64,000 bases of DNA, taken from Silurus meridionalis. Lineage: Eukaryota > Chordata > Actinopteri > Siluriformes > Siluridae. Within the stretch, counting starts at the first letter, position 1. Every line of letters begins with the position of its first letter. Shown piece by piece: positions 343-61,000 of the stretch. A program made the position numbers and the translations under genes. Under the pieces are notes generated by a model. It did not search any database. It had not been told where the DNA came from and saw only the letters and a list, made by a program, of their open reading frames with translations. The DNA lies in contig NC_060907.1 of the NCBI RefSeq assembly GCF_014805685.1, forward strand, positions 2,747,197 to 2,811,196, in the 5' to 3' direction.

Positions 343-27035
<26,693 letters not shown>

Positions 27036-33060: not shown

Positions 33061-33117
33061 GCCATGTTGCAGTGTGCATCATACAATATGATCTGAGCAC
33101 TGACAAGCGGACCACTT

Positions 33118-33460
33118 ATGCAACATCTAAAGCAATGCTGGCAGCACTCATGCATCTGTTTTTTGAACAAGCTTCTGCACCTGATGCACAGCAGGAGGAA
33201 ACAAGAACTAAAGGCAATCTTTGCGGTCCTGGAGTGGCGTTCTCAGTCACCAGATTTAAATCCAATTGAAAATCTTTGGTGGAATTTAAAGAAGGCATTT
33301 GCAGCACAGAAGCCGTCAAACATCACTGAGTTAGAGGCTTTTGCACGTGAAGAATGGGCAAAGATTCCAATCAAGAGGTGTCAGAAGCTTGTCAGCACTT
33401 ATCGAAAACGCTTGTTAGAAGTTATAAAAACTAAAGGGCGCTCCACAAGGTACTGAAGCT
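33118..33460 (+). pseudogene. Tc1-like transposase C-terminal fragment
   Basis: Reads QSPDLNPIENLWWNLKKAF, EEWAKIPIKRCQKLVSTYRK and ends KTKGRSTRY, the usual Tc1 end with the final catalytic Glu (PIENLW). The N-terminal parts are absent; it abuts the LINE relic. Confidence 0.88.
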
Positions 33461-42400: not shown

Positions 42401-45400
42401 AGAGATCTTAAAGTCTATACACCCTGTGTTCATTAACTGCTAATGAATTAATAGCAAGCAAGTAGTAATAATATAATAATATTTAATATATGTTGATTTC
42501 AAGTTTCATATGCAGAAATTCTGAATGAAAATAACCTTGTATGTATATGTAAGTTGTAAGTTTTCGCTGTTGAAAATCCATTTGACGGGACGATGTCTTT
42601 CACTCACCCTCACTTCCACCATCAAGTCTACATTCTTTCGATGGCTTACTTGCTTATAGTATTCAGCCACTGCTTGGAACACCATGATGGTGGCCTAGTT
42701 GACAGGTAAAACCAGAGATGATTTGGTACAACCTCAGACTGATTTAAATGTGACTCTGTTACATTGTAACTTTTATTAGAAATTCTACATGAACTGTGAC
42801 ATGCATGACCCCAGGAATGTTACAGATTCACACAAAACACAGAGTATTGCTTCAAAATCAGTTAAATTCTAAATAAACAACAGCATATTCATTAAAAAGT
42901 TGCTGGTCAACCAACCTGAGTGGTGCCATGACCTCCATAATTGATACTCTGCCTATTGAGCCATCTAACAGCTTTTCCTGCTGCATTAAATTCCTTTGCT
43001 TTTACCAGAGCCAGCAAGGCATATGCTGTCGCTTCCACAGAGAAGAACTGTCCTCCAGGAACCTGCCAGTAAGAACCATCTGTGCACAAGAAATATAAAG
43101 AAAATAAAATGTGCTTCTTGACAGGTTAATTTTTATAGAAATGTAAGAGTTCCTGACCTTCAGAGGACGCCTGCAGCAGATGATTTTTGTTGAACTTGCC
43201 AGCTTTTGCCAAGGCATAGGAAGTCATCGCAATTGCATATGGATTGTTCAAGGAGAGGAGCCTTCTTTCCAAATAATTTAGGGCCTTGCTGGAAGACTCT
43301 AAAATACTCTAAATTAATAGAGAAAGCCAAATAATATAAAAAAGCTGGTCCACATGTTTCAGCCTATTAAGCTGTTACATATGCAGAAATATAATGCGGC
43401 ATAAGTTGACATACGCTAACATACGTGGCACAGAGATGGTTTCCTTCTTGCAAAGCAATCAAGACAAATGCTGTCAGAGATGCATCAGAATCCTTACCTC
43501 GCACATCACCCTGAAATCTCAGAAGAATCACACAGATTTCACATAAAAAGTAGATTTGTGGTTTCTTGTAGATTTCATACAGAAAACAAATTTAATTTAC
43601 ACTTACAACCATCTCTGAATGGACCACTGGGGAGCGTTCTTTAAATGTGCCATCTGGCATCTGTGCATTCAGAATCAACCATTTGATGGCGCTGCACAGG
43701 ACATTTTTATCTATGCTTATATAGTCAGTTGCCATAGCAAAGACTTTGACCACGTATGCTGTCAACCTTTACCACAGACAAAAACAAGCAGTCAAGAAAT
43801 CACCTGCAATCAAATGTTGCTTAGAAAATCTGTTAATTACACAAAGTTTGATTGGTCTCTTTTACCATGTGCTGCTAGGTCTCGTTAGAAATGACGCATA
43901 AGAACCATCATCTTTACGAAATTTAAGCTCTTGTAGATATCCTAAGAGAGGGAGGAAAGATCATTATCTTCGTCCACTCTTTAATTTTATTAAAAGGCAA
44001 TTAAAAGCTCTAATCTAAATGCATCATCTCTTCCGTTGATCTAAACTGCATTACAGGACCAGGACTGATCGTGCTCTGTGAAAAATGGAGGAATTAATGT
44101 AAGGAAGGAGGAAAAGAGAAAAGCCAAGGAGGAGGTTTATGGATGTGGTGAGGGAAGACATGGAGGTAGTTGGGTTGAAAGAGGCAGATGTAGAGGACAG
44201 GGGGGTATGGAGACGGATGATCAGCTGTGGTGACCCCTAATTTGAGCAGCCAAAAGAAGAAGAAGAAGCAGCTCTGGCTGGCTGCAGCCAGTCAACAGAC
44301 TTTACACCTCTGAATTTCTCATGAACACAACAGATGATAACATCTTAATGAGCAAAATAGCCTATAACTGTGTTTTTCTTTACAAATTTTAGATTTGTGT
44401 CCTGACTACACATAAAAATGTGCATTATGGATTTTGAGAAGATTCTTCTCACCTGTTTTAATGTGTTGGATAGCTTCATTACGTTTGTGTAGGCCGACTG
44501 CTTCCCACTGATTAGTGGTATCTAAGTAGTGTGTGGCAGTAAGGGCAATGTCATAGAGATCATGACTTGATCCCCACTTCCAATAGGCTTTATGATCAGG
44601 CGCCCCATGAAGTCTCCACTGATGACCTGCTCGATTGTCTGACTCACCTGCTGACCTGTTGAATAGTAAGATGGTTAGCATGATGGGTAAGCAATTAACG
44701 ACTGTTTACTGTCTACCTTTGGCTCTTTAAAAAAGAGTGTATCAGGCAAAAGTATACAACTAGAATTATGGAAGTATGATTGTTTTCACCTGCTTTCAGT
44801 TTAATTCCATCAGAATTAGAAGGAGCTTTATTGCACAGTATGTTTGCACTTACAAGGAATTTGTGTTGGTATCTGAAGCTTCCAGTGGAAAATTTTAAGT
44901 AAAATGCCAATAAAAAAGCCAAAAAAGAAAGATTTAAATAAGTAAAAATTGCATTGCACATATGTTGTATTTTTTTGCACAATGAGGAGAGCATTATGTG
45001 TTCATGAGGTTGATTGCCTGGGGGAAGAAACTTCTTGTGCCTGCTGTCTTGGTACTTGGTGCTCTGTAGCATCGGTCAGATGGCACAAGTAAAAAAAACA
45101 TATGGCTTAAATTTAAACGATCCAGGGTGAATTTCAAGGGCCTTTTTTCTCATTCTGGATATGTTCCTGTGGAGTGAGCAGGGGTACTCTGTAGTATTCT
45201 GATGTCTGATTGTGTAGCTGAGCCAAAACAGATGGTTATCAAAGTGCACTGGACAGACTCGATGATGGCTGAGTAGAACTGTTTGAGCCGCTTCTGTGGC
45301 AGGTTTAACTTCCTCAGCTGGTGAGGGAAGTACATCCTCTGTTGGGCCTTTTTAACAATGTAGTCGATGTGATTGTCCCACTTCAGGTCCTGAGAGATGG

Positions 45401-48400
45401 TGGTTCCCAGGAACCTGAATGACTCCACTGCTGCCACAGTGCTGTTCATGATGGTTAGTGGGGGAAGTGCAGGGGGGTTTCTCCAGAAATCCACAATCAT
45501 CTCCACTGTTTTGAGCGTATTAAGCTCCAGGTTATGAGTGCACCAGACAGCCAGCTGCAGAACCTCGCTTCTATATGCAGTATTTTAATCATCTTTGAAG
45601 AAGCCGATGACTGTAGTGTCATCTACAAACATTAGGAGCTTGACAGAGGGGTCTGTAGAGGTGCAGTCGTTGGTGTACAGTTAAAGGCCATACTGAAGTA
45701 CACAAACAGGATCCTCACATAAGTCCCCAGGTTGTCCAGATAAAGTGCAGTCCCATGTTCACTGCATCATCCAGAGACCTGTTTGCTTGGTAAGCAAACT
45801 GCAGGGGGTACAGCAAGGGTCCAGTGATATCCTTCAGAAAAGCCAACATCAGTCTCTCAAATCACCAAGATGGTGGTTTAAGATGGCGGTGCAGCAGTAG
45901 CTCGCAGCAGCCGCGCCGGACTCAAAATCGTGCTACTTCCATTTTGTAGCCTGCCTTACGTAACATATGGACATCGGAGTAAACAAACAGAACAAATTGT
46001 TCTACCGGATTTGGAGTATGTGTGTAGTGCAGTGGGATTTGAAAGCACACACATACTCCAAATCCGGTAGAACAATTTGTTCTGTTTGTTTACTCTGTTT
46101 GTTTACTTTGTCTATGTGGCAGCAGGTGCGTGGCCGAGCGTCGGTTTGTGAATGGAGGGTGAGGACGGGGGCAGAAATTACACACCTGAGGGAGTTTTGA
46201 CTAATGAATGTTTTCTCTTGGAGAACATTGCAATAAATGGATTTGTTCGGAACTGGTCTTTGTCCTGAGTGTTCCTTCCCCTGTACCTTGTGCTCTTCCA
46301 CAGTTTATAATGGTGTTTATTTTTTTCATTTTTCTTACCCGTCACAATGATCTGAGAGTGTGCAGGAGTGTTTGGAACCTGCCCACTTGGAATATCAGTC
46401 TTCATCTGTACAGTTTGGATGCCACCTATTAAAAGAAATAGATGAAATAAAATGCTAAAAAAGTTTAGTATAAATGCTGACATAAACAAAAAAAAAAGGG
46501 AAATAGATGAGAAGCAGGAATGAGATGTTTGCTGCGGATTTGGTATGGAATATAGAAAATCTCACCAGGAAATTGAGAGGGATTCAGTTTCAAATTGGTT
46601 TCTAAGATTTCAGTTAGCATCCCCTCAGGCTGAGCAAGAACAACAGAACATTTTAGGCATAAAACTGTTAGACTTTATGTTTATTAAATCACAATATTTG
46701 ATTTGGCAACAAATATAGCTTGTTGTCTGGATTGATCACTGATATATAATTAGTTGATACTCACCATTACCTTCAGGGTTTTCCTTACTCCATCATGATA
46801 TGATCCGCTTGCAGCCTTCACCTCTATATGGTGGTCTCCTATTTTCATGGGAATTATCAGAAATGGGACAGATCTGCTGGAATTGGGGTCAATGTTAACT
46901 ATAGAACGGTATTTCTTCTTTTTGTTGGCTACACTGCAAATTTGCTCCGTCTCAAAGAATTCCAAACGCACCTGTTGGGCACAAGAAGTCGGACAGTCTA
47001 TGTCTTTAACATCAGTACAAAACAGGAATATTAGTTTATTATGATTCTGCCGGTGAAATTAAAACTGTTTCATTAGCTGTGGTTTTAGAGCCTGTCTAAG
47101 GAGGACCAAGCATCAATTCCATTTATATAGTGCTTTTAATAATGGACATTGTCTCAAATCAGCTTTACACAGATAAAGCAGTAATAACCCATGTGTAAGT
47201 GTGTTCCTTATAATTGTAAGCTTGTCCCTAATGAGCAATCCAGAGGTTAAAGAAAATAATGCTAATTCATTTCAGGACACATGTGAGCAATTTATCAGAA
47301 TCAATTATCCTTCCAGACCAACCCCAGCCATTAGGGTTGCACAAGCCAGTGCACTCTTAGTGCTGGTCCCAAGCCCGGATTAATGAGGAGGGTTGCGTTA
47401 GGAAGGGCATCCAGCGTAAAAACATGTGCCAAATCAAACATGCGGATCATGAATACAGATGATCCGCTGTGGCACCCCCTAATGGGAAAAGCCGAAAGAA
47501 AGTAATCATCCTTCCAAAAATTTTATCGTGAGATAGGAGAAAACAAGAGAAACCACATAACATCACAGTGTTGTTGTACACTACAAATACTTAAATGTAA
47601 ATGACTGTAAAAAACTACCTTCTGTAGCATATTGGAGAGGTTATACAGAATTGCTTTGATTTCAACTTGTTCATTGTGTACTGCTGAATAAGGTAACTTG
47701 AGATCCACAAAGAAATCTTTTACCACTGTTATTTCATATGGATCAGCCGCACAGATACCTACAGAGATCGATAAATAAATCTGTGTAAATATTTGCAGTT
47801 ATATGCCAGTCCTAACAGGTGCCTAGTTCAGACATTATATTCCATCAAGACATTTTCAACATGAGAAAAGGATGTGGCCCTGACCGTGGGTCTTGGACAG
47901 ACTGATGGCTAGGATTTGCCATGTTGTAATAGAGTCTTGTAGATAGTTTGTGTCCATGGTGAGAGTTGTTGTGGTACTACAAGAAAAATGTGCAACAGCA
48001 GAGTCAGATCAGTGATCATATTAAGCTCCAGAATGCTAGACTAAATAATCTTTCAGACTGTTTCATTTACCATGGTTTGTTTCCTGGGCAGGCTGGCAGG
48101 CTTATATCCTCCCAAAGCCAGCTCTCTGGGAAATGCGTCCGGGTAAAAAAGCTTATGAAGTCATCATCATCATAATCATAATCATCATCATCATCACCTA
48201 GACAAATATGGATTTGTAAATTACACCTCAGAGAGATCAAAGAGGCAAAAATTGGCTGGTCAGGAAATAAAGAATTCAGCTTAGATAGCTTAAAATATTG
48301 TTATCATTTATTTGCTAGTGTAGATCTCTTTCCCTTTACATTACAGTCAGGTTAAATAAAGTAAAGGTGATTTAATTCATTTTTATGGTACCAATGAATA

Positions 48401-51400
48401 GTTTTTCCTTCCACATTTAATGTCAGTTTGCAACTATTGTCGTTGGAGGTCAGTGCATCACACTGAGGGCACAATTTGTGAAGGGTGTTTGTTATATTTG
48501 TTATTATCTCTTTCGGTGAAACACTAGATTATAAAAAAATATATGTGAAGATACATTTAGAAAAAAAAATTGAATCAAAGTCTTAGTCCCAGGAGATTCA
48601 GATCAGATGTCCCGTGGGGGACACACATGCGATATGCATGTCTTCATAAATAATCAAAATCCCATGACTTAGATATGCACGTTGTTTTAGTTTTTTTTTT
48701 TTAAACAAATCGCTGTTCTAGCGAACCCATATCGAGTTTGCTTTCTCAATATCGGCATTAGCTTTCAAAATCCCATTTACCAACCACCAATACTAAGGAA
48801 CTTCATGAGTGGCTGCACAATTGGAATGGTTTCCTTTAATCTGTTTTACAGTATGATGTTAGCTACAACATTCTGGCCAAAACAATTATTTGCCTGGACA
48901 ACCAAAACATGCCAGAATATATAGAAGAGATTATATAAATATTTTTATAAATGCTTGTGTGCTTCAAAAACTTTCACAAATCAAGAAAAAACAAAGAACA
49001 TTGCTGGTTCTTACTTCTAGCCAGACGCACCAGAGGTCTTTGCTTATCCTTGTGGGACCGAATCTCCGTACAGCAATCCAGAAAGGCCTTGACACACTCT
49101 GAATCTTCCATAATAAACGTAGATCTCTGTTCACATGTGTAATCCAGCCTGGTCTGCCTAATTCCATCTTCACAGCATTTCTTTAGATCTTTGGCAAATT
49201 TACCAACTACAGAACGAGAGCATAAATAAAAATTTACAAATTTACGAGCAGGTCCATCCAAGATAAAAAAAAAAAAATATTTATTTCATCTGTAAATCAC
49301 CTAGTTTATTGTATATAATTAAAATAATAACTATTAATGTCACAAAAACAATAAAACACTGAGTGTTTAAAAATGTGTGTGTTTGTGTGTGAAGAAATGC
49401 TGTAAAGTAAAAATGTTTTAAAAATAAATATTTTAATTATTTTTTTTTTTTTAAACAAATCGCTGTTCTAGCGAACCCATATCGAGTTTGCTTTCTCAAT
49501 ATCGGCATTAGCTTTCAAAATCCCATTTACCAACCACCAAAACTTCATGAGTGGCTACACAATTGGAATGGTTTCCTTTAATCTGTTTTACAGTATGATG
49601 TTAGCTACAACATTCTGGCCAAAACAATTATTTGCCTGGACAACCAAAACATGCCAGAATATATAGAAGAGATTATATAAATATTTTTATAAATGCTTGT
49701 GTGCTTCAAAAACTTTCACAAATCAAGAAAAAACAAAGAACATTGCTGGTTCTTACTTCTAGCCAGACGCACCAGAGGTCTTTGCTTATCCTTGTGGGAC
49801 CGAATCTCCATACAGCAATCCAGAAAGGCCTTGACACACTCTGAATCTTCCATAATAAACGTAGATCTCTGTTCACATGTGTAATCCAGCCTGGTCTGCC
49901 TAATTCCATCTTCACAGCATTTCTTTAGATCTTTGGCAAATTTACCAACTACAGAACGAGAGCATAAATAAAAATTTACAAATTTACGAGCAGGTCCATC
50001 CAAGATGTATTTCAAAAAATGTATTTCATCTGTAAATCACCTAGTTTATTGTATATAATTAAAATAATAACTATTAATGTCACAAAAACAATAAAACACT
50101 GAGTGTTTAAAAATGTGTGTTTGTGTGTGAAGAAATGCTGTAAAGTAAAAATGTTTTAAAAATAAATATTTTAATTATTTTTTTTTCTTTTTCTTATTAA
50201 TTTACAAAATGCAAATGAGCGAACAAAAGAAAATCTACATCAAATCAATATTTGGTGTGAGCAGCCTTTGGCTGAAAGAAATAGTTTTGTCCCTGATCTC
50301 ACCATAACTGAGTCTGTCTGTGATTACATGAAATAACAGAAAGATTTGAGGGAACCTACATCCACATAAGATCTATGTTTATGTGGCATGACACACCGAG
50401 GGCTGACGAAGAAAATGTAGCGATTACGCCACCCTGGCACTTGGCCAGGAAAATAACTGCACTTAGGCAACACAGGTTCGTGTACAAAGAATCAGCGGAA
50501 GACGTGGGTAAAATTAGTATGGATTTCTTTTATTAATGATAAAAGTATCTGATGCACCTAATGAAAAACCAAAAACAGAAATTACTCAACTATAACACAA
50601 ATAACTTCAATAATCTGACACCTTTATCGATGTGAATGCAGGAGCCAAGGCATAACAACGGGGATCAAGGGCACTAATCGGCCTCCACAGCACCACACAA
50701 CTTTTGGTTGCACCTGTGTAGACACTCACACACACCACTGCACCCAGCACAGCACTCGTGAAACAAAACCACCACCACAATCCGCCCCGCCTTCGGCACT
50801 CAGCTCCTTTAAGACACATACCCTTGGGATGAGTGATCCAGAAACACAGGTTACTATAAGGGTAAACCCGAAAGCTGCAGGCTCGTTCCGTAGATCGTGT
50901 GTGGGGTCTTCCCAGGAATCGCGTACACAGCACTTCTGTGCACCCGTAGGCTCACTCGCTTTAATAGCTCTACCACACCATAGTACAATGTGTTAAGGCA
51001 GGCACTGTCGGTATTATTAACGCCGCTCTCTCTCTCTTCGGCTCACCTCGGACTATACACTGCCGCGAGGAAACACGTCAACCCAACACCAGCCGCAAGG
51101 TTTACCCAAACAGACAGCTCTGACTGGCGACTCGTGATGACGCAGACAGGGGCGTAGCACCCGTGCCAACAAAATGCTCCCCAGCCAAATTTATACATCC
51201 CCCTTGCCCAATGATAGGACAATCACTGAGCACCTCAACCGACTAATCCGGAAGCAGGAAGGGACTCGCCAATCTTATCACAATCTCCCCCCCCGCTTCT
51301 GCATCGCCGCCCGACGATGAACACCCTTAATCCCAGGGCCTAAACAGTACTGAAATAGCCCTAGATGCTCCATCCGCCGTATCAAACCCCCCCACAGATC

Positions 51401-54400
51401 GTGGAAGGTGGTGGACATTAGAATGTTGGCCAGCTGTAGTTCGACTACTTTGTCGCACGGTCCTATCATACAAACCCTCTGGCCTTGGAATTAGCTCATC
51501 CCCAACGGGCTGACCCAAGTTAGGTGGGGCCACCACCACCTCACCACTAGGAGGGTCTACACCGCCCAAGTCTACTGGGACACTAACCTCCTCGGTCACT
51601 GGGGGCCCAGATACTACAACCCATAAATCTCCCAGTTCAGACTCCTCAGGTGCCTGCTCATCCGGAGCCAATATGGCCTCAGGGTCCTGAGCAGGTACAT
51701 CACCAGAATCTTGCTGAATTCTGATTTTCAATAAGGAGCGATGTACTTGCCTTACCTTATCTAAATCATCCACAGGGGCAATAGAGTACACCGAGCCTCC
51801 TTTCGTAGGGGCTCTCACAACTTGGTACACCACTGGGCTCCACAGATCTCGGATTTTTGACCGACCTCTCACGCCAAAATCGCGGAGATAAACCAGTTGA
51901 CCCTCCCCCAGTGGTGCATCTCGCACTTGTGAGTCATGCCGTGCCTTACGGCATTCCGCAACAACTCTCAAGTGTTCACGTGCCCCCTCGAAAGCCACCT
52001 GCAACCGGGTTTGATGCTCTACAACCCACTCATGCACTTTTCCCACAGCAGTCTCCTCTACCTTACCTAACAAAAAGTCAACGGGTAACCGAGGCTCTTG
52101 GCCAAACATCAAGTAGTATGGTGACTCACCAGTGGATTGATGGGGGGTAGTGTTATAACTAAACAGGACCTGCGGGAGACATGCAGCCCAATCCCGCTTA
52201 CTCGATGGGGGCAATGTGCGCAAAAGGTTATGCAAAGTCCTGTTAAACCTTTCACACTGACCATTCCCTGCAGGATGGTAGGGGTTGTTCGACTTCTCCA
52301 CCCCATACAACCCACAGAGCTGTTGTATTAATAAAGACTCAAAATTGCGGCCCTGGTCAGAATGTATACGACCAGGGACCCCAAACTACAGAACCACTCC
52401 ACCACTAACACTTGGGCCACTGTCTCTGCCCGCTGATCCCGTGTAGGCACCGCCAGGGTATATTTGGTGAACACATCTGTGATCACCAGCACATTCTCCA
52501 AACCTGCACTGGTTGGCTCCAACACGGTAAAATCCACAGCCAAGATCTCATTGGGCCTAGAAGCCAACAAGTGCCCCATAAAACTAGAGGCCACTGGCTG
52601 TACCCCCTTGGCGGATTGACAACGGTCACATTCCTTACACCATCTGGCCACCGCATCGACATACCAGGCCAGTAGCAACGCTGCCGGACCAACTCGGTCG
52701 TTCGTTCAATGCCCTGGTGTCCATGCTCCTGGTGTAACCCCCTCAAGACCTCAGCTCTTAACACAGATGGCAAAAGAACTTGAAGGATTTCCTCTCTCCC
52801 ATCGGGACGGAAAACCCGACGATAAAGAACTCCTCCTCGTTCCACCAGTCGATCCCACTGGCGGAGCAAAATTAGACTATTCTTGGACAGTACTTTCCGT
52901 TCGTCTGGACCTGAAAGTTTTACTGCGCCAGAGACGCCCACACCCCAATGTCTGGGTCAACGTCCTGCAGTGCCCTGAGGTCAGCCGCGGAATAGCTCGG
53001 GAAGACCCTAAGGGCCGCTTGAGTTGCCTGATGCATAGGCTCTATTCCTGCAGCTTGTTGTATTGATGCAGGAAGCACAGTAACTGGTATGAACTGCCCT
53101 ACTTCCCCACTATCAATTGGGAACTGCCGAGAAAGGGCATCAGCATTACCATTACTCTTACCCGGCCTGTACCAATTTCAAAATCAAAACAGCAAGCTGT
53201 GCAGCCCAACGCTGTTTGGTGGCCCCAACCGCTGATGACAAATGGCTCAATGGGTTGTTATCTGTAAAAACAATGCACTTTTGCCCCACAAATACTCCCT
53301 GAATTTTTCGGTCATTGCCCACTTAAGCGCCAAAACTCCAATTTCATAGAGCTGTAGTTTGCAGAATTGCGCTCAGTGGGTCGCAGGCTACGGCTGGCAA
53401 AGGCAATAGGTCGAACTTTTCCCTCCTGTTCCTGGGACAGAACAGCCCCAACCCTTGAAACTTGCATCTATCTCAAGAATAAAGGCAAAGAAAAGTCAGC
53501 ATATGCCAAAATAGGGGAAGTGGTAAGCTTCTCCCGCAGGGTGTCAAAACTCCTTTGACATTGTTCAGTCCAAGCTCCGGCAAACCCTGGACCCACTACT
53601 CTTTTACGCTTGCCCCCAGCAAACTCTGCCACTAGCTTATGTAGGGGGGCTGCCACCCTGGCAAACCCCTCTACAAAGCGGCGGTAATAGCTGGCAAACC
53701 CTAAAAATGAACGGAGCTCTGTAGCACTTCCTGGACAGGCCCAACTAGCCACTACCTCCACTTTACTTGGATCCGTGGCAACCCCCTGAGAAGATACCAC
53801 ATGACCCAAATACTTTACCTGTTCTTGGAAAAACACACACTTCTCCAGCTTAGCTTTAAGCCCTTCCCGCTTCAATCGACCCAAAACTACCTCCAACCGC
53901 TCCAGATGTTGAGTCACCGAGGAGGAGAAAACCACAATGTCGTCCAGGTATAACAGCAAGGACTGATGCCGTTGGTCCCCAAACAATCTTTCCATCAAAC
54001 GCTGGAAAGTGCTGGGAGCATTACAAAGCCCAAACGGCATCCTGTTCCACTCAAATAACCCAAATGGCGTACAGAAAGCTGTCTTAGACTTATCCCCCTC
54101 AGTGACTGGAACTTGGTTGTAACCGCTAGCCAAATCCAAAGTAGAGAACCAGCGGGCCCCGGTCAATGCGTCTAACGTTTCCTCGATACGAGGCAGCGGA
54201 AACGCGTCCCTCCTGGTCTTTGAATTCAACTGACGGTAGTCAACGCACATGCGGAGACTACCGTCTTTCTTTTTCACCAGGACGATAGGGGATGCATATG
54301 GGCTCGAGCTCTCTCTAATTATCTGGGCATCTAGCAGCTGGTTTATATGCGTTTTCACTACATCATACTCAGAGGGTGGCAAGCGCCTGTACCGCTGCCG

Positions 54401-57400
54401 AACCGGAACGTCATCTGTAAGGGGAATGTCGTGTGAAATCAAGTTTGTACAGCCCAAGTCACTCTCATGAGCTGAAAACACAGACTGATATTTCTGTAAC
54501 AGGGTCCTAACCCTATCCTGCTCCTTAATCTCCAATGCGGATAAATCAACCGTATCAATCCGCTGCTGTAGCGAAGGTTCCAACACACACTCTTGAGCCC
54601 CTACCATTGCAATGGTCTCCTTCACCTCAGTGACCCCAGGAGGCAAACTTACAACAAACACCCCATGTAGGGTACCCAGCAGGGTATTTGGATAGAGTAC
54701 CACATCTAACAACCCTACATTTACAACTGGAATGTAGACTGTACCTCGAACTGATGGCACCAAGGCAGGTGAGGCCAGAAGGCCAGCCGGGAGTCCCGAC
54801 TCAAGCGGCTCAAACAACACCGTGCCCTGAGAGTACTGTTCGGAACAGGTGGCAGCCACAATCTTCATGGTGCCACCTGGAATACGACACTGACGACGCC
54901 CTCGCACCTTTACTCGCCCTACCTGTCCAAGTCCTGGCTGACATGTGTCCTTGTGGCACTGCTGCAAAGCCTGCATCACAAAATCAGGAACCTCTACCAC
55001 CGGTGGAGAGTCGAACAACGCTTGGCCATGTTGACCAAACAGTTCCTGGTAACACCGGCTCAACACATTCATTCCCAGTATTCCTGGGACCTGAGCACAC
55101 GTATCGCCGGGGGGATCCTTTACTACCAATATCCCACACCCTGGCACTATCTTACCACACAGCTCAACATCCAATTCCATATAACCAAGATATGGAATAG
55201 CGAGCCCATTAGCTGCCCGCAGTTGGAGCCATTGGCAAAGTTTTAGACGCCCTGACCCCAAGGTTCAAAATGGCTTAAAAACAGCTCTCGGTTATTGTAG
55301 ACACCATAGAGCCTGTGTCAATCAAGCACGGCACCCCAACCCCTCCCATCCTGACCACCAATTGTGGGCAGCCAGACATTAAATGAGACATCGAGCCCCT
55401 CATTACCCCTGCCGAGCTGTGGCTCAACAGCCCGGCGGGCACTAGTTTCCCGACGGCTGGCTTGGATGACGTTGCCCCCTCGCTAATGACGACGTGGTAG
55501 GGTCCTGACACGAGCGATCAGAAGACGATGAATCAGAAGCCGAATTGGCGGCAGTAACAAATTACACTCCCTGGCAAAATGGCCAGGTTGATGACACCGC
55601 CTACAAACCCCGGTCCATAACGCGGAGAATGACTACGAACGCACGCCCTGAAACTGGGCGAAACTTTGAGTCAGCTGATTTAACTGATTCTGTTGAGCTT
55701 TTAATATTTCTCGTAATTCGTGCAATTCAGACGATGAAGACTCATTTGTAACAGAACGCTGACCCCCCTGCACACCATATTGGATCCCATATGAAAACGG
55801 GACAGACTGGCTACGAGCCCGCGCACCCCCTGGCAAACCCTCCTGCTCCCACCGTATCGCCTCACTACGTACTTCCAATAGCGTGGCGCTTGGTTGACGG
55901 CGAACTAACTGTTTAAGTTCACGGCGGAGGGCATTATCAATTACATGCTCGACGAACTAGTCACGCAGCAATTTTGGAGCATTTAAAACAGCCCCAGGAA
56001 ATCGCTGTTTAACTTTTTCCATAAGACCCATCAGAGCAAGAGAAAACTCCAAAAGACTTTCCCCCTCCAACTGTCGTCTGGAAAAGAACGCTTCCTGTAA
56101 TGCTACGTGGGACTGCGAGCAGCCAAAAACCTCACGTGAGCAAAGAAAATCTTTTCCGGATCCCCTGCTCAGCCTCGAACGATATCGGATTTCGTCTCGG
56201 GCCTCCCCCTCTAAATGATCGAAAAGAAAGAACGCCTGCTCGCCCACCGATAAATGACGGGTCCGAATACAAGCCTGTGCCTCCTCAATCCATTCACTGA
56301 TGCCAATACCAGATCTACCATTGAACCGGGGACACTTCCGGTCACGAGGCACAAACACAAATCTTTCGGATGGATTGGCACCAGCAATGCCTGGAGGAGG
56401 CACAACCCGCTCTGGATCGGGCACATGGGAAGATGATGCGCTGGGGCCAGGCAACGCGAAGCACTTTCTGGCGCAACGCTCATTATCCGCCCTCAACTGG
56501 ACGACCAATTCTCTAAGTTCCCTAAGTTCTTCTTCCATTTCTTAGAATCACGACTTACCACTACGATGGTGTCACAAAAATAGAGGAAGCTGCTCACCAC
56601 ACTCCAGCAGACGCTGTTGCTTTGCCTAAAAAACACTAAACACAACAAAACAATAACAAAGAAACACAATCACCAACCAATTGTAATTCACCTTAACAGA
56701 AAAAAAAAACAAATACCCACGTCTTCACCTAAATGAACATGTATCCTGCCGACTACGCCAAAATGTGGCATGACACACCGAGGGCTGACGAAAGAAAATG
56801 TAGCGACTACGCCACCCTGGCACTTGGCCAGGGAAAATAACTTGCACTTAGGCAACACAGGTTAGTGTACAAAGAATCAGCGGAAGACGTGGGTAAAATT
56901 AGTATGGATTTCTTTTATTAATGATAAAAGTATCTGATGCACCTAATGAAAAACCAAAAACAGAAATTACTCAACTATAACACAAATAACTTCAATAATC
57001 GGACACCTTTATCGATGTGAATGCAGGAGCCAAGGCGTAACAATGGGGATCAAGGGCACTAATCGGCCTCCACAGCACCACACAACTTTTGGTTGCACCT
57101 GTGTAGACACTCACACACACCACTGCACCCAGCACAGCACTCGTGAAGCAAAACCACCACCACAATCCGCACATACACATACCCTTGGGATGAGTGATCC
57201 GGAAACACAGGTTACTATAAGGGTAAGCCCGAAAGCTGCAGGCTCGTTCCGTAGATCGTGTGTGGGGTCTTCCCAGGAATCGCGTACACAGCACTTCTGT
57301 GCACCCGTAGGCTCACTCGCTTTAATAGCTCTACCACACCATAGTACAATGTGTTAAGGCAGGCACTGTCGGTATTATTAACGCCGCTCTCTCTCTCTTC

Positions 57401-57793
57401 GGCTCACCTCGGACTATACACTGCCGCGAGGAAACACGTCAACCCAACACCGGCCGCAAGGTTTACCCAAACAGACAGCTCTGACTGGCGACTCGTGATG
57501 ACGCAGACAGGGGCGTAGCACCCGTGCCAACAAAATGCTCCCAGCCAAATTTATACATCCCCCTTGCCCAATGATAGGACAATCACTGAGCACCTCAACC
57601 GACTAATCCGGAAGCAGGAAGGGACTCGCCAATCCTATCACATTTAGTTCTCCAAGATTCCTTCAGAAACTGTGTCCTTCAGAATCAATGCTATTTTGCA
57701 GGCAAAGGATATATTTTACAGTTCTTAAAATATTTATTAGGACTTATGTAAATAAATGTAATCTTAAGGCACAACTTATAACTATATATACAC

Positions 57794-57864
<71 letters not shown>

Positions 57865-57995
57865 TACTTCATTAGTTAATAAAGTCCAGCTTCTTACCCA
57901 ATGTTTGGGTGATTTGTAGCTCCCTCCGTTTTCTCTTTTGTGGGGTAGGACACTGAATATCTATTAAAAAAATAAAATAAAAATAAATTAATTAA

Positions 57996-58076
<81 letters not shown>

Positions 58077-61000
58077 TATTAGTGAAACCAAACTCAACAC
58101 AGTGCATTAAGACAAAGTGATTTTGGTGGTTTAAATTATGTAAATCATCAAAACAACAAATGGAACTTTTGCTATGTTTCCACACGGACTGTTTTAATTG
58201 CCGGATGTGTGCATCATGGCGGATTTTGATGCTGATTTGAGACTTCACATCAGGGAAATAAAAAATGTCGCTGGAGTTAAATTATTGATTTATTTTTAAT
58301 CCGAGTATAGATATGATGCGAATAAATGTGTGCTGCATTAAAGGTTTGAAATTTGCCTCTTTTATATTTATTTATTTCTCTTTTTAATAAAAATGGTCCA
58401 ACAGAACTGCAGGATGCATTTATTACACGTTAATTAAAATAGTGGTGAGTTGTCTGCTTTGTTGTTGTTTTTTTCATAAGTAGTAAGTCACAGTCAAAAT
58501 ATGTGTTTGCCATTAGGGGTGTGTCACGGCAGTGACTACGCATAGGAAGCGGGAGTAACTCCATTCTGCTTTAATGAATTTCAGAACACAAACAAGACTT
58601 GAGTCAAGGTACGAACCATAACGCGTGTGTAATCCGTACTGCGGGTAGAATCCAGAATGCGGGTAGAATCCATGAAGCAAGTATAATCCGAAGACAAGGA
58701 ACAAGGAGCATGAACCAGCGGGGCATGCTGGTGGTCAGGAATCCGGTATATCACTGTAGCAACTTAATAGGACTGACAGTGAGTGGGGTGGAACGGGGAC
58801 TTTTTAAAGGGGAAAGGTAACGAGGAACAGGTGCTGCCAATTAGAGCAGGGAGAGGCAGCATGAGAGCCTTTGAGGGAGGTGTGGCAGGTGGATCCCTGA
58901 CAGGGTTCTTATGTGTGTGTCACGATGAGCACAATTTCAGAATCCATTATTGAAGTTACAAACTTTACTCATCCCCCTGTTACATTTGTATTGCAGGTGC
59001 ACACTGAGAGCATTAGCTGTGGTTTTCTATCCTGTTTTTAAACTGCTGATTCACCTGATTGTTTATGCACCTGAGTGTTTCCAATGGCTGTGGATGTTGC
59101 TGTTTTGAACAGCTGAGTTGCTGAAAGTTTTAAGACTAATCTGCTCCATTAAATTAGTGGAGAAGTATTAGCCACCTTTGATTTTAGGGCTACTGTTTTA
59201 AACTAAGACAGCTGTACACTGGCTTGCTCATCAGGGATAAAAGCACACCGTTCACCTTGACTGTTGATTTCTGTAAAGCTGCTTTGAAACAATGTCTGTT
59301 GTGAAATGCGCTTTAGAAAGAAACTTGGTTTATTGAAGAAGTTTTAAATGATTATTGATAGCACTGCAATTTTGTTTAACGTGTTTGGACAGGTATATAT
59401 TTTGTATACAGTTTTTTTGGTATGCCAAATCTTTGACAGTGTATCTGTCTACATGTGAATGTTGGATCACCTGTAATGTTGCAGTTTAACAGCAGGGGAA
59501 AGTGTATTTGCTTCTTTTCCAATAATGTTTTTTTTTTCCACTAGCTTTAGGAAACTCAATTTACTGATTTGCTGTGTGATTTGTCCCTGCTGCTAATGTT
59601 GGATTCACACAAGTTTCTTTAGATAAAAGATTATTGTTGTGAAAGTAGAATTTTTCCGGGAAGTCACATTTTTTGTAAACACATTGTTTAAAAACTTCAT
59701 TTGGAGTATTTAATTTTATTTTCCTGGGTGGTAAAAGAACCCGGGTGGCATATTTATGCTTCCTTAACATTTTAAGCAAAGGGTTTTATATTTTTTATAG
59801 TTTTGAAATGAACATTTTAAAATGTGCAAAACATTTTTTTTTCCTCTGAAATTATATTTAGATTTGATTTGTTATAACTGATGTCAAATCTTTGGTCATT
59901 GTCGGTTATTTCAGTTACCCAAAATTATTTATATGCTAAAATTTAAATGTTAATGATAATACCTCGAATAACAATTATTTTCACTTGCTACTCAGTAAAA
60001 AAAAAAAAGATTAGATATAAAAAATAAAATGTGTGGTTATTGAACCAGTGAGCCTGTGGTAATTTCGGGGAAATTATTGTGGCAAAATTAAGCAGAAAGA
60101 CTCACATTAGTGTACATAAGTGATGTAAACAAAGTTTAATCAAAACCAGTAATAACTCATTAATTCTATTAATAAAATATCTGCTTCACCTGTTCTTTCC
60201 TTGGTGCCTCCTGCTTTATCAGACTGAAACAGAAGTCCTGCATCGTAGAAAACCCCCATGCTGTCTTTCCCACTGCCTGGTGTACAGCCCGTGTCATACT
60301 TCTCTATAAGGTTCCAGATCTGTTAGTGGAAAAAGAAAAGAATGGTGCTATAATTATGTACAGTATCTATCTCCCAACATGAATGACTGCTTCCTGATGT
60401 CTGAGCAGTGGTGAATAGTACCATATTACTTTTTTTTTAATAATATTTGCATTTCATAGTTTAATAGTATTTGCATTTGGAGAGACTTTTTACTTCAACT
60501 TCACTACATTTCAAAGTCGAATATCTTACTTTTCACTTAACTACATTTATTTAAATTAGTCGTTTCTTTTTATTTATGAGTGACAAACTTAACTGGTCAG
60601 ATCACCAATCAGGGTCAAGTGCACACTCTGTTTTGAACTTGTATTGATTGGCACGTTTGTGGCATCTACTCATCACCAACATACAATTCAGCATCAGTTC
60701 AACAGCAAGCAGAACAAACTTCTGACTCGAACTCTCCACAACACCTGTGGCCTTGTTTGTGTGATTTTTTCAAAAGTAGTTATAAAGAAGGTTTTGGGTT
60801 TATGATCATTTTCATATTTAACTCATTATCACTATAATATTAATAGTCCAGTGTGCTGAGACTAACATTAAAAATCTTTTCACATAAACTACGTTAATTA
60901 AGTAAAGAGTCTTATGACAAAAATGATAATAGGAACATTATAACCATAGTCTTTTGGATACTTAAGTACATTTAAAGGCAAATACTTTTGTATTTTTACT

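Follow-up and report, generated by a model that had tools for sequence, protein, structure and literature searches.

Each complement C3 molecule normally links a single anaphylatoxin with a single opsonin, and it is normally cleaved between Arg and Ser. In the cited passages on sea bream, the isoforms C3.1.6 and C3.1.7 are described as C3 without ANATO, and the ANATO region of C3.2 as 81 residues longer (PMC7768046). None of the literature matches listed, whose scope leaves out most subscription journals, pointed to a C3 carrying two C3a domains. We pooled the best 120 of 718, the best 120 of 239 and the best 120 of 331 protein matches into a set of 322 related proteins, in which the six-cysteine pattern of C3a was present once in 291, absent from 28 and present twice in three: P0121 of Sinocyclocheilus anshuiensis, P0010 of grass carp and P0122 of S. 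grahami. Pfam placed two ANATO stretches in each of P0121 and P0010, both from cyprinids. An earlier note on this DNA had taken vertebrate C3 to have one anaphylatoxin domain, which held for the 291 proteins but not for P0121 and P0010, with two ANATO stretches, nor for the 28 proteins without the pattern.

The genome-derived C3 of S. anshuiensis (P0121) resembles gene A of the locus described here (see below) in that exactly the exon-17 block is annotated as a tandem repeat, LAR-T-GQYSG..LAR-S, whose two copies share 64 of 65 residues; it differs in that the host is a cyprinid. The putative complement component c3 of grass carp (P0010) also carries two C3a domains within one C3, but there exons 16 and 17 are both repeated, the copies are alike at 59 of 75 positions, and the first copy ends in KRKPR rather than LAR. 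In residues 564-713 of this protein the KRKPR end is followed by the repeated exon-16-like stretch, and a furin-like cut at KRKPR could, judging from the motif, free the first copy. The P0010 record has no contig and may be of cDNA origin; for grass carp there is also the record P0123, with a single C3a. In P0122 a larger block is repeated and the C3a motifs are identical, probably a misassembly.

Among the 28 pattern-less proteins, exon 16 was joined to exon 18 in 10 (as in gene B, see below) and exon 15 to exon 18 in four, three had intron-like stretches and the anchors were unreadable in 11; some may reflect faulty annotation, as when zebrafish c3.8 was at one time predicted wrongly and its ANATO domain put into an intron that does not exist (PMC4057122, cited passage). 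A second C3a lacking the six-cysteine pattern was also sought through the distance between flanking anchors, which was measured in 299 of the 322 proteins and not in the other 23. The distance was at least 200 in P0010, P0121 and P0074 and at most 77 in 15 proteins; P0074 was rejected as a double C3a, its extra stretch resembling an unspliced intron. One C3 protein, P0081, was labelled as a Prevotella sp. MAG, probably owing to host contamination.

The locus lies in a 64-kb stretch of the Silurus meridionalis genome, called the window here, where tblastn with catfish proteins showed two tandem C3 genes on the minus strand:
34404-63996, minus strand: C3 gene A, its 5' part extending past the right end of the window (tblastn)
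344-27026 (approximate), minus strand: C3 gene B, which lacks a C3a exon (tblastn)
In a 25-row tree made up of C3 proteins, without C4 or C5 rows, genes A and B grouped with the Silurus asotus and S. meridionalis sequences (support 100/100) and with each other (87/85), a grouping expected of C3 genes from a silurid catfish. Gene A shares the C3a exon, its cysteine pattern and the KRKRR site with the complement C3-H1-like protein of S. meridionalis (P0222) and other catfish C3, which differ from it in having a single C3a and a GCGEQ thioester. All 11 catfish C3 rows inspected had one C3a, which counts against a real duplication and shows that the doubling is not general in catfishes; with P0121 from a cyprinid and these rows single, its doubling and that of gene A are likely independent. 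The reading we prefer, and to which we would give an even chance on the sequence evidence, is that gene A is a decaying, thioester-less C3 paralogue in which a symmetric exon cassette underwent a recent, real tandem duplication.

The duplicated segment consists of two units that contain the whole of exon 17, the C3a exon:
49441-50190 (alignment span 49437-50190), minus strand: upstream repeat unit in gene order, about 0.74 kb (self-alignment)
48691-49440 (alignment span 48687-49452), minus strand: downstream repeat unit, about 0.75 kb (self-alignment)
49757-49948, minus strand: C3a exon copy 17a, Met variant, phase 1-1 (alignment, splice check)
49015-49206, minus strand: C3a exon copy 17b, Thr variant, phase 1-1 (alignment, splice check)
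As assembled, the exon with its flanks and splice sites stands in adjacent head-to-tail copies, with a block spacing of 738-750 bases. Alignment of the units bore out the pair of 192-base exons differing at one base, so that the residue behind the final CC is either Met or Thr, and together with the splice check it agreed with the earlier description of both as six-cysteine, phase 1-1 exons ending in LAR (here LVRLAR). The acceptors and donors of the two copies were identical and intact, and the best PDB match was the C3a structure 4i6o (E 9.7e-14). Away from the edges the units differed by two isolated substitutions, at 48815 and, inside the exon, at 49068, by an 8-base indel (48791-48798), by a TG-repeat indel (49374-49375) and in an A-rich stretch (49265-49281); a softer gap cost gave three substitutions and four gap runs over 731 aligned bases. 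Self-comparison of the window, which listed pairs of at least 150 bases and at least 85% identity, listed a single further pair exceeding 300 bases, made up of the retrotransposon LTRs, and none of the other pairs listed was adjacent and head to tail. Chance repetition was ruled out by this comparison.

Poly(T) tracts mark both the outer borders of the repeat and the junction of its units:
49440-49452, no strand assigned: poly(T) junction of the units, T13 (sequence reading)
48691-48702 and 50178-50186, no strand assigned: poly(T) borders, T12 and T9 respectively (sequence reading)
The left border reads T12-AAAC, the right border TTA-T9-C and the junction TTA-T13-AAAC, a form expected when exchange or slippage involves a pair of poly(T) tracts. 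Only 28 A/T tracts of at least 9 bases, 316 bases in total, occur in the 64 kb window, and three of them are the borders and the junction; tracts of this length are so rare that their placement is not due to chance. The 0.74-kb head-to-tail repeat probably arose when two such tracts recently underwent unequal exchange. The mark would be identical if an assembler had joined a pair of alleles at poly(T), and a false heterotype duplication of this kind, in which both alleles of a single 0.74-kb stretch were placed head to tail and the C3a exon of the animal is single and polymorphic for Met/Thr, is a serious possibility, falling short of an even chance. It agrees with the near-identity of the units, whose two substitutions and few indels per 0.74 kb are as expected between alleles, and with a junction lying in a homopolymer, where assemblies slip; the larger block with identical C3a copies in S. 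grahami (P0122) resembles such an error. According to the cited passages of PMC9516828, errors of this type are common and able to duplicate exons; they show near-identical adjacent copies with allele-like differences, as at this locus, and usually, not obligatorily, a gap between the copies. Here the units are joined without a gap and no N occurs anywhere in the window, which mildly favours a real duplication; the borders and junction also fit an exchange within poly(T). The exon-17 repeat annotated in P0121 and the diverged two-exon repeat in P0010 likewise speak for a real duplication, the diverged double C3a of grass carp arguing against a joining of alleles. We infer that the animal itself, and not just its assembly, carries the repeat.

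Under a real duplication, the product depends on how the two copies are spliced to their neighbours:
60190-60319, minus strand: exon 15 (tblastn, splice check)
57898-57960, minus strand: exon 16, which encodes KRKRR, the site of beta/alpha processing (splice check)
48071-48197, minus strand: exon 18, start of the alpha' chain (splice check)
The introns of gene A in this region are GT-AG, and the three that follow exon 16 measure 7949, 550 and 817 bases. A lost acceptor at exon 15, once suspected, was ruled out, the site ending in aacag. The frame is open across exons 15-16-17-18 with 17a, with 17b, with both or with neither. Splicing in silico confirmed that joint inclusion of the copies keeps the frame and gives C3a-C3a in a single precursor, as the earlier note had proposed: the predicted double form reads KRKRR-ELQITQTL-VGKF..LVRLAR-IGKF..LVRLAR-SDDDDD, and Pfam found two ANATO stretches in it (E 2.5e-24). 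Gene A thus has the arrangement of C3, a six-cysteine ANATO domain after a basic processing site, with KRKRR in exon 16 and exon 17 present twice. Counted from the basic site as far as the second LAR, the double form has 136 residues and 12 cysteines. We predict joint use of the C3a exons, read in frame in one C3a-C3a precursor.

The same note had suggested that cleavage could release either a double-length peptide or two C3a peptides. The in-frame C3a-C3a product stands, and the release of two separate peptides is doubtful, the first LAR being followed by Ile and the second by Ser in the spliced double form. For this reason the second LAR is the preferred predicted cut, and a convertase acting there would release a single 136-residue double peptide. 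The further proposal of a mutually exclusive cassette, in which either exon is used and the C3a is a Met or a Thr variant, is not implied by the arrangement and seems very improbable. Both exons are complete, have identical splice sites and are in frame alone, as such use would need; nothing seen enforces exclusion, though, since the 550-base intron between the copies would not by itself keep both from being spliced in, and the frame holds when they are. Neither a very short intron nor a frame break against joint inclusion was found.

Whether gene A makes a working protein turns on its thioester exon and on its rate of change:
44451-44656 (approximate), minus strand: thioester exon of gene A, with GSGDQ, a one-base frame break and an early stop (tblastn, frame reading)
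In place of GCGEQ, gene A has GSGDQ and gene B has GSGEQ, so neither carries the thioester cysteine. A one-base break in a short homopolymer run interrupts the frame of this exon in gene A, with a stop codon a few codons further on; a sequencing error at this site is possible. No second frame break was seen in the exons covered by tblastn, which span 1303 of the 1650 positions of P0222, the first 238 positions falling outside the window. Branch lengths were 0.28 for gene A, 0.11 for gene B, 0.065 for Silurus asotus and 0.028 for the S. meridionalis row; of 1135 residues compared, 176 were changed only in A and 67 only in B, and the A-B dN/dS was 0.53. This pattern points to relaxed constraint and probably to decay of gene A; with a dN/dS below 1 and a single frame break in the covered exons, decay is unproved. 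If the frame break is real, most gene A transcripts would be lost or truncated.

The opposite view, that the break is a sequencing error and that the fish secretes a thioester-less C3 with a covalent C3a-C3a, appears quite unlikely to us. It draws on the intact frame and splice sites around the C3a exons, on the nature of the only break seen, a one-base change in a short homopolymer, and on the occurrence of thioester motifs without Cys in other proteins: at the thioester position of 221 related proteins, 144 had Cys, 29 had Ser, Asn or Asp, and 48 did not match the pattern. Faster evolution and the frameshift in the thioester exon, with its early stop as assembled, make a working double-C3a protein from gene A improbable, barring a sequencing error.

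A recent duplication in a decaying gene A, the reading we prefer, leaves two C3a exons next to a gene that has none. In gene B the exon preceding the expected C3a position is joined directly to the one that follows:
13186-13257, minus strand: gene B exon 16 (tblastn, frame reading)
11338-11445, minus strand: gene B exon next to exon 16 (tblastn, frame reading)
The join between these two exons is in frame. No C3a exon of gene B was found by tblastn of three C3a exon peptides against the whole window at E up to 10, and none was convincing in the minus-strand frames of 11300-13700, the copies in gene A being the only convincing ones. The neighbouring genes A and B thus carry two and zero C3a exons, respectively. 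Gene B resembles sea bream C3.1.6 and C3.1.7, where, in the cited passages, the C3a domain is absent; these are cases of loss, not gain, in another fish order. Exon 15 with its flanks was 96.4% alike between gene A (60150-60370) and gene B (13612-13832), the other A-B matches listed being 85-88% alike; this high likeness is perhaps the result of gene conversion.

Neighbouring genes with two and zero C3a exons suggest that the ratio of anaphylatoxin to opsonin can be changed in fish through gain or loss of one symmetric exon, and the number of C3a exons, from zero to two among fish C3 paralogues, is the point most worth following. Speculatively, and with the odds well against it, the symmetric 1-1 C3a cassette may vary among zero, one and two copies in the tandem C3 genes of ostariophysans, uncoupling anaphylatoxin from opsonin, so that some of these fish would secrete a C3 from which a single cleavage releases a covalent C3a-C3a that has twelve cysteines and a single LAR end. 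If the gene is transcribed and open, it would offer a natural tandem anaphylatoxin for testing the response of the C3a receptor to linked ligands. If the repeat is an assembly artefact, it would be a warning, since the annotation of another fish genome already contains the same architecture.

Most of intron 16 of gene A is occupied by a retrotransposon with long gag-pol-like frames, presumably Ty3-like:
50381-57642, minus strand: LTR retrotransposon within that intron, with LTRs at 50381-51282 and 56763-57642 (reading frames, self-comparison)
Over 877 aligned bases the two LTRs show 12 differences, besides five gap runs. A weak RNA polymerase match in the domain search was set aside as below the curated cut-off. 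The window also contains a perfect inverted repeat of 49 bases (45977-46025 and 46047-46095, with a spacer of 21 bases) and, between C3 exons (16001-22000), a strong GC skew of -0.467 at 16-18 kb and a high GC content of about 0.55 at 18-22 kb. By its look, we take the minus-strand frame at 45153-45584 to be a LINE reverse transcriptase fragment and, likewise, the plus-strand frame at 33097-33456 to be a Tc1-like transposase.
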